Of a stretch of DNA of 64,000 nucleotides, positions 9,523 to 13,626 are shown in pieces. The stretch's first letter is position 1, and every line of letters starts with the position of its first letter. The notes under the pieces were generated by a model. It was not told where the DNA came from. It ran no database searches and saw nothing but the letters and a program-made list of their open reading frames with translations. The position numbers were made by a program, and so were the translations under genes. Source of the DNA: Syntrophorhabdaceae bacterium (GTDB lineage Bacteria > Desulfobacterota > Syntrophorhabdia > Syntrophorhabdales > Syntrophorhabdaceae); NCBI GenBank assembly GCA_026415675.1, contig JAOAGQ010000033.1, positions 1 to 64,000 on the forward strand, written 5' to 3'.

Positions 9523-10323
9523 TCAAGCCAAGAATCGATAATTACCCTGCTTCTCCTTTATGGTCTCAACCATCGCCTTGTGTATCAAACTGTTCGATGC
9601 TATTATCTCATCCCTATACAGATTAAAGCCTTCTCCACCGAAATCCGTCACCATCCCTCCGGCCTCAGAGACCATCAATACCCCTGCCGCCATGTCCCAG
9701 GGGTTAAGGCTTAACTCCCAGAAACCGTCAAACCTCCCTGCTGCAACGTAACTAAGATTCAGAGCCGCTGAGCCATCCCTCCTTATTGCCTGCGCCTTTA
9801 AGAGAAACTTCAAAAAATGGTCTATATTGTTCCGTCTGTTTGTTCTTATATCGTAGGGAAAACCTGTGGCGAGCAGGGATGATGTAAGGTTATCGACCTT
9901 TGAAACCCTTATCTTTTCACCGTTTAGGTATGCCCCTTTGCCTTTAACCGCATAGAAAAGCTCGTTGAAGATGGGGTTATAGACAACCCCATGGGTGATC
10001 TCCCCTTTCTGTTCATACCCCAAAGAGGTACAGAAAAAAGGGTATCCGTGGGCGTAATTTGTGGTTCCATCGAGGGGGTCTATGATCCATCTGTTCTTAT
10101 TGTTGCTAACAAAACTATTGTCCTTTTCTTCACTTATAACAGATTCTTCAGGGAAATTATCATGAATTAAGGCTATCAGTTTTTCTTGACAGGCAATATC
10201 CACTTCGGTAACGATATTTATCTCCCCCTTATACTCAATATTGAAGGTCTTTTGAAAGTATCTCCGCTGTATCTTCCCCGATTCGATAGCGCACGTAATG
10301 GCAAATTTTAAAATCTCGTCCAT
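9523..10323 (-). CDS. Inositol-monophosphatase family phosphatase (SuhB-like)
   Basis: A 266-residue enzyme with both family signatures: SEEKD, then WIIDPLDGTTNYAHG (Mg ligands) and ELSLNPWDMAAG near the C-terminus. Length is normal for the family. It would hydrolyse myo-inositol-1-phosphate or a related sugar phosphate; the residues do not rule out a fructose-1,6-bisphosphatase or PAP phosphatase role. An inositol-phosphate synthase gene lies 24 kb away, which makes an inositol role plausible. It is in the same minus-strand operon as the selenoprotein candidate (29-base gap). Confidence 0.9.
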   Translation of the reverse strand: MDEILKFAITCAIESGKIQRRYFQKTFNIEYKGEINIVTEVDIACQEKLIALIHDNFPEESVISEEKDNSFVSNNKNRWIIDPLDGTTNYAHGYPFFCTSLGYEQKGEITHGVVYNPIFNELFYAVKGKGAYLNGEKIRVSKVDNLTSSLLATGFPYDIRTNRRNNIDHFLKFLLKAQAIRRDGSAALNLSYVAAGRFDGFWELSLNPWDMAAGVLMVSEAGGMVTDFGGEGFNLYRDEIIASNSLIHKAMVETIKEKQGNYRFLA

Positions 10324-10352: not shown

Positions 10353-10682
10353 TTAATGTCGTCCATTCTGATATCTCCTTTTGCCTTCCATTATCGCATC
10401 CTTCAGGACCTTAACGGATGGAACTTTTGTGAGTCTCCCTGACTCATCGATAAACATCCTTCAGGAAAAACCCTTTATTTCTTGGGGTTGCAATTCAACA
10501 CCGTTTATGTATACTGAAGGCGAACCTTTTATACCCATACGAGATGCCTCTGCCTCATCTATCCTGAATATAGCGATTTTTGCGTCTATGTTGTCTTCCT
10601 TTAATGCGGCCTCTATATTTTTCTTCAATTCCTCCTCTGAAGGGCAGGTAAGGGAAAGATAGCAGTCAATGCTTAATGTCAT
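10353..10682 (-). CDS. Probable selenoprotein: thioredoxin-like protein with in-frame UGA
   Basis: Reading from ATG 10682 gives 73 residues and then TGA (10461-10463). The frame continues for 35 more codons to TAA (10353-10355), for 109 residues with U74. The N-terminal part looks like a short thioredoxin fold: a CP motif (C13-P14), then GIKGSPSVYINGVEL. The UGA falls in a GFS-U-R context followed by ..G.....P....L..AI. As I recall the family, Cys-containing thioredoxin-like homologues have a conserved Cys-Arg at this spot. A 6-bp hairpin with a G-containing loop starts 14 bases after the UGA, as expected of a bacterial SECIS. The gene follows a VKOR-DsbA fusion, which supports thiol redox chemistry. 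Alternatives are a truncated 73-residue protein or a nonsense mutation. No Sec machinery gene is in the window. Confidence 0.72.
10430..10463 (-). promoter_or_regulatory. Candidate bacterial SECIS element
   Basis: On the minus strand the UGA at 10463-10461 is followed, after 14 bases, by a perfect 6-bp stem TGAGTC/GACTCA (10446-10441 and 10435-10430). Its loop is AGGGA, with G at the second loop position. The loop begins 21 bases past the UGA. Bacterial SECIS hairpins are known to sit in this range and to need a G early in the apical loop. The hairpin lies entirely inside the coding sequence. Confidence 0.65.
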
Positions 10683-10725
10683 GTAAGAATACCCCTTAAA
10701 TGTTTTTTTAATACTTCGACAGGCT

Positions 10726-11691
10726 TCATTTCGTACCCCTCTCTATTTTTTTCGACTGTTCCTTCTTTATCTTTTCAAGACCCCCTATAATCTCCTGGCT
10801 ACCGGTATAACGCTCTGTTTTGCCTTCGTTTTCGATTATACAGGTTGGTGTAGAGTTTACCTTGTCTGTCTTTAGATAGGTATTCAATAAATCAAACGTG
10901 GGTTTTACATCAAAGGGCTTAAATTTGATACCTTTGTTTTTCAGGTATTCCTCGAGTTTTTGCTGTTCCCCTATCTTTTCAAGGGATGCCCCTATCAAAG
11001 CATGTCTCGCAAAAAAAGCGGTCTCGATATCTTTTTTTTCATTCAATATGTATAGAAAATATCGGGCATAGAGAGGGGAGGTTTTGTATATAGGGGTATC
11101 GACGAAGGTGATGGTGATTATATTCTTTTTTATCAGATCCAAAATCAAAGGTTCTGCCTTCGGTTCCATAGCCCTGCAGGGAGGGCAGAAATAGTCTGTA
11201 TAGAGCCTCACTTTGACCTGGCCTGTACCAAAGGATGGTACAAGGGTATCGGATGCGTATAGGGGAGTTGCGGTCCCTTTAAAGAATATGGCAAAAAGGA
11301 TGAGGCTGATTGTCCCACTTAATATGGAGAGTCCCACAAAGGTTCTCTTTATATTCAAAAAAAACATCACCATAAGCAAACCTCCAAAGGTCAAACAGTA
11401 AACACAATAGGTGTTATACCATATCTGAAAACCTATGAGATAGAATTCTATCCCGACCCCTGCCGATAGGGAGAGAACGAGAAGCCTCTCCTTCTTCATA
11501 AGGGCGAGGGGGATTAAAAAAGACATGTAGCCAACGCCGATATACTCAAGGGGTATCCCGAAGAGTTCCCCTCTTAAAGAGGAACATCCCCCCTCGCATA
11601 AACTGTAGTATACCTCGACACCTATGGCGAGAAGGGCGATGATTGCCGTGATAAGATCCCGTCGATTTTGTAAAAAAGAGTATAGAGACAT
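10726..11691 (-). CDS. VKOR fused to a DsbA-like thioredoxin domain
   Basis: A 321-residue membrane protein. Residues ~12-140 form the vitamin K epoxide reductase fold with several membrane helices. It has the loop cysteines C32/C36 (CEGGC) and the quinone-facing pair C96-x-x-C99 (CVYC). After a linker, residues ~155-310 form a thioredoxin/DsbA domain with active site C169-P-P-C172 and a cis-proline region (STPTC). Such fusions introduce disulfides into exported proteins and pass electrons to quinone, replacing DsbA plus DsbB. The ATG has AAGGAGAT eight bases upstream. It is the first gene of the operon carrying the selenoprotein candidate, 43 bases downstream. Confidence 0.92.
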   Translation of the reverse strand: MSLYSFLQNRRDLITAIIALLAIGVEVYYSLCEGGCSSLRGELFGIPLEYIGVGYMSFLIPLALMKKERLLVLSLSAGVGIEFYLIGFQIWYNTYCVYCLTFGGLLMVMFFLNIKRTFVGLSILSGTISLILFAIFFKGTATPLYASDTLVPSFGTGQVKVRLYTDYFCPPCRAMEPKAEPLILDLIKKNIITITFVDTPIYKTSPLYARYFLYILNEKKDIETAFFARHALIGASLEKIGEQQKLEEYLKNKGIKFKPFDVKPTFDLLNTYLKTDKVNSTPTCIIENEGKTERYTGSQEIIGGLEKIKKEQSKKIERGTK

Positions 11692-11785: not shown

Positions 11786-13393
11786 CTAATTTAGATTGAA
11801 AAGAATTTCACGATTCGTCCTGTATCCTTTTATCTTTAACCCTTCAGCCCTTTTAAAAAAATTTTCGATGATCCCCCTCTCGTGCCTTTCCTCTATATAA
11901 ACCATCCGCCCATGGTCAAAACAGATAAACCTTTTTTCTCTAAAAAGTACATCGATGATATGTCTCACGTGGATATTTTCAGAGAGGAGTTCTGGAAGCT
12001 CTACAAGCCTCTTAAGAGAGGGTTCCCTATCGATATATCTTTTGACGAAATTGATAAACCTTACGAGCTTCATAAGTGTAAACGTTATATCTCTGGGGAA
12101 AAGGGGGTTCACCTCGAGCATGATGCTTGAGCGGTATGAACGAAAGGGTAGATTTTCTGTATGGGGCCTGTAATGTTCAAAGATCCTGCTGTTTGGGGCG
12201 AGGTAGAAGATGCTAGGTCCCAGAAGAGACCTCTTGCCCATAAGGAATAGCATTGTATTTATCACATCTTCGGGGCTCTGACCGGGAAGTCCTATAATAA
12301 AGTGCGTCTCTAAAAGAAAGGGGGAGTCTTCTATAAACGGTAATAATTTGATATAGTTAGAAGAGACACCTCTTTTCTGGGAAGAGAGAACGGTTGGGGT
12401 AATATCCACAAGGGAGAAATTGAGCCTTTTAAAGCCCGCCTTTAACATGTGCCCCAATATCTCTTCATCAAGGGTCTCTGAATATACACCGTTCATCGCA
12501 TATAGCTCCATATCCCTTCCATAAAACATCTCAAGGACCTGTCTGAAAAACGTCCTGTCATATGTGAGCATATCATCTTCAAGGTCTATGATGTCGATAC
12601 CCATCTCCTCGCAGATATCTATCTCATCCATAATCGTTTGGAGCCTTCTCTTTCTATATGGCACAGAAGGCCTTCCACAGAAGGAGCATCGGTTTGGACA
12701 GCCCCTCGTGGTCAACATAAACGTATAGGGTCTACCGTGCATCTTATAGGCGTTTTTATCCACAAGCTCCCTTGCAGGTATCGTGTCTATGTCATGTTCG
12801 TAGTTTATATCGCCTATATGGAATCCCCCCTCTTCCCTTCGAAAACATAGTCCAGGTATATGAAGGAGGGTCTCTTTCCCTTTCTTTTTGAGGGCTTCTA
12901 TCAACAGAAAAAGCGGTGTCTCCCCCTCCCCCCTTATCACGAAATCCACATGGGGGTTTCTTAATGTCTCTTCTGCATAAAATGTAGGGTGGATACCACC
13001 GACTATTGTTACGATATTTTTATCTATTCCCTTTGCGATCTCGAGTATCTGTAATGCCCCTTCCGAGTATGGGGTAAAAAGGGAGGAGACGGCCAATACA
13101 TCGGGTTTGTGCTTAAAAATGGTCTCTTGAATGACTTTATCTTCCTTTCCAAATCTGTAGTAATTGGTGAAAAGGGAGAAGGGGGTGTAGGTATCCCCTC
13201 TATAGTAATCCTTGAGCTCGGCAAAGGGGTGATCCTTTATGATGTTAGGCTTTTTTACATTCCTTAAATCTTCTATAACCACATGGCAAATGTCTTTCAG
13301 TTTTGCTGCGAGGTATAGTATGCCTAAGGGATAGGCCCTTATTTTTGTGTCATAAAAATCCTCTATGGGAGGCTGTACCAGCAGGACTTTCAT
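11786..13393 (-). CDS. B12-binding-domain radical SAM protein
   Basis: A 535-residue protein. The N-terminus has the cobalamin-binding Rossmann fold typical of this class (LLVQPPIEDFYDTKI, then VVGGIHPTFYAEE), although a DxHxxG motif is not evident. Residues ~200-400 form the radical SAM barrel with the CxxxCxxC cluster motif (TRGCPNRCSFCG). The C-terminal ~130 residues are unassigned. The ATG at 13393 overlaps the stop of the MoaD-like gene by one base and has GGAGG upstream, so it belongs to the AOR operon. It may mature a cofactor or modify a lipid; the substrate is unknown. Confidence 0.85.
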   Translation of the reverse strand: MKVLLVQPPIEDFYDTKIRAYPLGILYLAAKLKDICHVVIEDLRNVKKPNIIKDHPFAELKDYYRGDTYTPFSLFTNYYRFGKEDKVIQETIFKHKPDVLAVSSLFTPYSEGALQILEIAKGIDKNIVTIVGGIHPTFYAEETLRNPHVDFVIRGEGETPLFLLIEALKKKGKETLLHIPGLCFRREEGGFHIGDINYEHDIDTIPARELVDKNAYKMHGRPYTFMLTTRGCPNRCSFCGRPSVPYRKRRLQTIMDEIDICEEMGIDIIDLEDDMLTYDRTFFRQVLEMFYGRDMELYAMNGVYSETLDEEILGHMLKAGFKRLNFSLVDITPTVLSSQKRGVSSNYIKLLPFIEDSPFLLETHFIIGLPGQSPEDVINTMLFLMGKRSLLGPSIFYLAPNSRIFEHYRPHTENLPFRSYRSSIMLEVNPLFPRDITFTLMKLVRFINFVKRYIDREPSLKRLVELPELLSENIHVRHIIDVLFREKRFICFDHGRMVYIEERHERGIIENFFKRAEGLKIKGYRTNREILFNLN

Positions 13394-13626
13394 CAACCTC
13401 CGCCTACGGCAGGGAAAAGGGATATCGTATCCCCGTCGCTGGGGGTTGACTCTGGAAACATATGGCGTCCATTTACGAATATCAAGACGACCTCCTCTTT
13501 TGGCAATCCAAGGGAAGAGATGACATCCGAGAGGGTAGTGCCTTCGGGAAAGGTAAAGGATTTCTCATCAAACCTTCCCTTTTTCAGCGAGGCAAAGAGT
13601 TTTACCGTGACGTTTATCGTTCCCAT
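13393..13626 (-). CDS. MoaD/ThiS-family sulfur carrier
   Basis: A 77-residue beta-grasp protein ending in VGGG, the C-terminal di-glycine that is adenylated and thiocarboxylated. VTVKLFASLKKG at the start and IFVNGRHM in the middle are typical of MoaD. Such carriers donate sulfur to molybdopterin. MoaD-like genes are common beside tungsten AOR genes, and here it lies two genes after AOR with overlaps at both ends. Confidence 0.88.
   Translation of the reverse strand: MGTINVTVKLFASLKKGRFDEKSFTFPEGTTLSDVISSLGLPKEEVVLIFVNGRHMFPESTPSDGDTISLFPAVGGG

Follow-up and report, generated by a model that had tools for sequence, protein, structure and literature searches.

A short minus-strand gene interrupted by an in-frame UGA raises two questions: is that codon a stop or a selenocysteine (Sec) codon, and what might the full-length product do? 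We present here an analysis of such a gene, located at 10353..10682 (minus strand) in a 64,000-nucleotide stretch of contig JAOAGQ010000033.1 (GenBank assembly GCA_026415675.1) from a Syntrophorhabdaceae bacterium; this whole stretch is referred to as the window. Comparison with relatives indicates that the gene very probably encodes a 109-residue thioredoxin-fold selenoprotein resembling the DF family, and reading of its UGA (codon 74) as Sec is close to certain.

The frame opens with an ATG at 10682, runs through 73 sense codons to a TGA at 10463-10461, and continues for 35 more codons to a TAA at 10355-10353. The coordinates were re-read and agree with those of the original prediction, which had proposed an undetected selenoprotein of this layout. 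The read-through translation is MTLSIDCYLSLTCPSEEELKKNIEAALKEDNIDAKIAIFRIDEAEASRMGIKGSPSVYINGVELQPQEIKGFS-U-RMFIDESGRLTKVPSVKVLKDAIMEGKRRYQNGRH. A Shine-Dalgarno-like AAGGGG (10692..10697, minus) is visible in the sequence 9 nt ahead of the ATG. As had been anticipated, standard gene calling of the window ends the protein at residue 73, so that Sec is lost together with the C-terminal third of the chain.

Homologues were sought with the read-through protein. Within the same order, 5 of 46 genomes carry the gene, each with exactly one in-frame TGA; across the phylum, 37 of 395 genomes matched, and the strong matches again have one TGA. Weak phylum matches such as L046 and L048 were DsbA-like, not DF, and were dropped. 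The aligned TGA codons fall at a single column, always with Arg next, and four f29 genomes (loci L033, L038, L040, and L044) have Cys there. For a scan of named genomes, a single-protein query returned nothing and alignment A1 was too divergent to serve as query; an alignment of closer relatives yielded 23 loci. All 21 of these that belong to the window's clade have TGA at the column ("Deltaproteobacteria," Syntrophaceae, and Nitrospirae metagenome-assembled genomes [MAGs]), and the actinobacteria Salinispora and Micromonospora (L088 and L089) have Cys.

In a tree, 45 distinct rows were compared, 39 with Sec and 6 with Cys at the column corresponding to 10461..10463 (minus); only 2 changes of label are needed. 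The tree splits in two: the window's clade (28 Sec rows; Desulfobacterota type and Nitrospirota) and a clade holding the canonical DF family. The actinobacterial Cys rows, two in number, are tree neighbors of the window's clade. Every member read has Sec or Cys followed by Arg, and none stops before position 74, which bears out the expectation that Cys homologues would show a conserved Cys-Arg and a continuing tail. On these sequences, the window protein belongs to a separate clade, all-Sec and mostly overlooked, that stands next to the DF family, and Sec is the common form of DF-type proteins, occurring in several phyla.

A hairpin of the Sec insertion sequence (SECIS) type, UGAGUC-AGGGA-GACUCA, follows the codon at 10430..10446 (minus). 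It has a 6-bp stem and a 5-nt loop (AGGGA) with G at the second position, and the loop begins 20 nt past the UGA. These values agree with the published bacterial SECIS rules for stem (4 to 16 bp), loop (3 to 9 nt), G in the first two loop bases, and spacing (loop 16 to 37 nt after the UGA) (PMC13188914). Apart from codon 74, no TGA of the window that is flanked on either side by open frame and is not overlapped by a larger open reading frame (ORF) has a hairpin that comes close to these rules. Of 13 clade members counted, 12 keep the hairpin in this position; it is disrupted in L029. Over 13 sequences, 94.9% of cells are paired, with 8 double-sided changes and two-sided changes in 3 of 6 pairs; none of 500 shuffles scored as high for covariation, and RNAalifold recovers the same stem unaided. 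A comparable hairpin is missing from three of the four Cys homologues; the fourth, L044, has one that is rich in G+C.

That a Cys codon (TGT or TGC) has mutated or been misread as TGA, leaving a pseudogene or sequencing error, is scarcely credible: TGA is one base off either codon and most relatives are MAGs, but 39 distinct homologues, drawn from two phyla or more, share this TGA, and the hairpin downstream of it covaries.

It is also very improbable that the gene encodes an ordinary 73-residue protein, with the UGA a real stop and the remainder untranslated. A standard caller stops there, and a run of 35 open codons by chance is not unusual, but purifying selection acts on the sequence past the UGA. 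In 12 clade members without gaps, pN/pS is 0.35/0.82 ahead of the UGA and 0.28/0.75 after it, and the signal disappears in the other two frames; the continuation, originally described as protein-like, is conserved as protein in the correct frame only. Invariant residues past the codon include R75, E80, G82, and P88, and the Cys homologues read straight through the column. An antisense ORF (10381-10662, plus strand) was ruled out as a shadow, because the thioredoxin family matches and the codon-position constraint fall on the minus strand.

The genome carries the complete Sec machinery that had been named as a check: tRNA-Sec/selC (72 bits), SelB (387 bits), SelA (566 bits), and SelD (369 bits) all score over cut-off. 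As a separate observation, selD (G000:C13:9657-10571) has an in-frame TGA itself, so the selenophosphate synthetase of this genome is probably a selenoprotein too. UGA read-through does occur in bacteria. Still, another meaning for codon 74, whether a code change to Trp or Gly or plain read-through, is just as improbable as a true stop: the amino acid that stands there in homologues is Cys and in no case Trp or Gly, the neighboring gene ends at a TGA, and the machinery is complete.

Several points weigh against Sec decoding. A 35-codon open run past a stop has a chance of about 0.19 with equal codon use if taken alone; it is conservation that lifts the observation above chance, since the carriers in the order each have exactly one TGA, at the same column. 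The hairpin alone folds at −6.5 to −7.1 kcal/mol, which does not reach the energy rule of −7.5 kcal/mol or below (PMC13188914); with an outer stem it reaches −12.9 kcal/mol. Its single-sequence folding energy is no better than that of shuffles (z of about −1, not significant). tRNA-Sec is over cut-off in 27 of 28 DF genomes, but also in 133 of 148 genomes of the phylum (about 90%), so its co-occurrence with DF does not discriminate and counts as presence only, a permissive condition. The same-column UGA in relatives, Cys elsewhere, the hairpin, and the machinery together argue for the proposed reading of the UGA as Sec at a cysteine column. SelB and tRNA-Sec would decode codon 74 with the hairpin at 10446-10430.

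Among families, the protein matches NCBIfam entry NF049942 ("DF family (seleno)protein") best (E value, 1.2e-13; 50.9 bits). The alignment is nearly end to end (residues 10 to 96 on model positions 6 to 96 of 96) and conserves Sec/Cys-Arg. The score lies below the curated cut-off of 70 bits, and the protein is therefore filed as a member of a sister clade and not of NF049942. Other clade members tested (L020, L024, L028, L031, and the L071 fusion) are also under the cut-off, with a clade range of 44 to 53 bits; L033-, L035-, and L039-type sequences exceed it. NF049942 originates from the "hypothetical protein DF" of Xiao and Zhang's 2025 deep-Sep paper, which found Sec in one species, no homologues with TGA in the other bacteria that use Sec, and no conserved domain or function to assign (PMC12013277); a 2026 review lists DF likewise (PMC13188914). 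The term "undetected" in the original prediction is right for the window gene, but the related family has carried a name since 2025.

Pfam Thioredoxin_3 (PF13192) matches at 4.3e-05, just below its gathering score. An AlphaFold2 (AF2) model of moderate confidence (predicted local distance difference test score [pLDDT], 79) has as its best Foldseek matches thioredoxins and domains of the protein disulfide isomerase type, with TM-scores of 0.4 to 0.6; as modeled, the protein has a thioredoxin topology with a cis-Pro loop (GSPS). The classical CxxC active site is absent from the window protein, with CPSE in its place. A single Cys at the first helix, the GSP loop, and Sec-Arg are invariant in the family alignment of 14 sequences. 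This cysteine, Cys13 (codon at 10644..10646, minus), caps the N terminus of the first thioredoxin helix and is a candidate partner of Sec74, which lies C-terminal to the cis-Pro loop, away from the usual CxxC position, and is a plausible catalytic residue. A second in-frame UGA replaces Cys13 at L041:1501-1503 (genome G054) and at the equivalent codon of L047 (G126), both in one genus; the hairpin after this first UGA is weak. The L041/L047 protein, encoded within an arsenic cluster, is possibly a double-Sec protein, and the replacement is a hint that the Cys13 and Sec positions act as a pair. We consider a Cys13/Sec74 redox or metal pair rather likely.

What the pair might act on is suggested by the surroundings of relatives. 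A core gene for mercury (mer) or arsenic (ars) handling lies within 3 kb of 20 of 50 DF loci, whereas the control DNA, 464 kb made up of the window and 20 stretches drawn from the same genomes, has none. The Fisher P value of about 1e-9 is nominal, because the loci are not independent and the probes were taken from DF loci; some 8 separate occurrences were counted. DF relatives sit in mer operons at L059, L070 to L073, L075, and L101; MerA is immediately upstream of DF in L059, L070, L071, L072, and L075, and the Cys member L101 shows the order MerR, MerTP, DF, MerA. At four loci in Nitrospirota MAGs (L070:864-1847, L071:6001-6987, L072:6001-6984, and L073:6001-6981), DF continues in frame into a MerB-like domain (PF03243; 3.4e-29). 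Its best NCBIfam match is SaoL, at 85 bits under the cut-off of 140, and it contains the stretches CATD and FFCS, which we take to correspond to the known MerB catalytic Cys/Asp/Cys. Arsenic genes (ArsP, ArsR, Acr3, and an ArsE-type thioredoxin-like gene) flank DF in L079, L080, L082, L083, L098, and L103, the ArsE-type gene adjoining it in L079, L080, and L083, and an arsenite methyltransferase gene (ArsM) is near DF in L065. This siting suggests a job in toxic-metal handling. No selenoprotein in mer or ars operons was reported in the literature searched (open-licence papers only), and as far as that literature shows, the link of DF-type genes to mercury and arsenic handling is new. Separately, a gene for a methyltransferase resembling the selenoprotein MduS directly follows DF at L056:2436-3215 (285 bits, under cut-off) and L057:5915-6583.

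The window gene itself has other neighbors. Upstream, 43 nt from the DF start, is a gene that joins a VKOR-like membrane domain to a DsbA/Thioredoxin_4 domain bearing CPPC (10726..11691, minus; PF13462, 2e-08; PF07884, weak); its stop codon is the TGA mentioned above. An inositol monophosphatase family gene (9523..10323, minus; PF00459, 3.4e-69) lies downstream, 29 nt past the DF stop. Two genes upstream of DF is a B12-binding radical SAM gene (11786-13396), a distant homologue of which (about 25% identity) is directly upstream of DF in Nitrospirota loci L077 and L081. The pairing of VKOR-DsbA and DF recurs, among the loci compared, only in the closest relative, G007. There (L054:836-1201), DF is followed by a gene of DUF2703, a small family with CxxC, and then by a cation-efflux gene. 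VKOR-DsbA was rejected as a DF-specific partner, since it is found in 44 of the 46 genomes of the order.

These surroundings favor a serious rival on function alone, namely, that the selenoprotein is a general thiol-disulfide redoxin linked to VKOR/DsbA and that the mer/ars siting of relatives reflects recruitment. Several observations weigh against a metal(loid) role: the window gene is in no mer or ars cluster among the neighbors checked, no MerA over cut-off was found in the genome search, the search for MerB gave no match with a positive control that gave no signal either, 30 of 50 DF loci lack any mer/ars gene in the surrounding 3 kb, and the VKOR-DsbA neighbor is near-universal in the order yet missing from DF carrier G001. 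The DF gene of the f30 genomes comes after alaS. SAO (Sec-assisted organometallic) genes were not seen beside the window gene. The VKOR-DsbA-type neighbor, in both the window and G007, fits the general redoxin. Against the general redoxin, the mer/ars link turns up repeatedly, both in clades with Sec and in clades with Cys and across several genera that are unrelated, is absent from the control DNA, and includes an in-frame MerB-like fusion. We regard the general redox role as a real possibility that falls somewhat short of probable.

A metal(loid) role for the family is best supported, because the gene repeatedly sits in mer (MerR, MerTP, MerA, and fused MerB-like) and arsenic (ArsR, ArsP, Acr3, and ArsM) loci. 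For the window gene, this role is carried over from relatives, since its neighbor is VKOR-DsbA, with no mer/ars operon and no MerA over cut-off; by that analogy, it is possible in this organism, if less than probable. The working unit would likely be the Cys13/Sec74 pair, forming a selenyl-sulfide or binding a soft metal(loid), and the family may help to detoxify metal(loid)s and organometals through a thiol/selenol step, either redox or relay. DF would take the metal(loid) or an oxidized thiol and hand it on to a partner, for which MerA, an exporter, and a disulfide exchanger are examples. The likely partner in this genome would be the adjacent VKOR-DsbA-type oxidoreductase, the weakest step of the proposal. 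More tentatively still, DF-type proteins may be widespread Sec-using thioredoxin-fold metal(loid) handlers, whose Sec74/Cys13 soft-metal site would take Hg(II) or an organometal from a MerB-like lyase and give it to MerA or an exporter, with an equivalent arsenic step.

For annotation, in the Nitrospirota relatives a standard caller would start the lyase past the UGA, splitting the selenoprotein-MerB fusion and reporting a bare lyase. For a related family published as a function-less hypothetical, resistance to mercury and arsenic now offers a concrete link that can be tested. Because mercury is bound more tightly by selenium than by sulfur, a selenoprotein in mer operons would directly test microbial Sec use on mercury.

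Among known systems, the DF family of NF049942 is the closest, with the same length and fold as the window protein, Sec or Cys in the same place followed by Arg, and a SECIS downstream. It differs in that the window's clade scores under its cut-off and that one Sec species was described (PMC12013277), whereas Sec is common here. The SAO system, like the DF fusion, pairs a thioredoxin-like selenoprotein (SaoT) with a MerB-like lyase (SaoL). SaoT, however, is listed with UxxC (PMC13188914), whereas in DF, Cys13 and the C-terminal Sec lie far apart, and the MerB-like domain of L070 to L073 is below the SaoL cut-off. The MTH895/ArsE thioredoxin-like proteins and Thioredoxin_3 (PF13192) share the fold of DF, with weak profile similarity; the ArsE-type neighbor has CxxC (CANC in L079), whereas DF has only the first Cys, plus the C-terminal Sec/Cys-Arg segment. 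The metallochaperones MerP and NmerA may be likened to DF by the proposed job, Hg carried by a thiol pair, and by its place between MerTP and MerA in L101; their fold is HMA and that of DF thioredoxin, and the likeness is one of role only.
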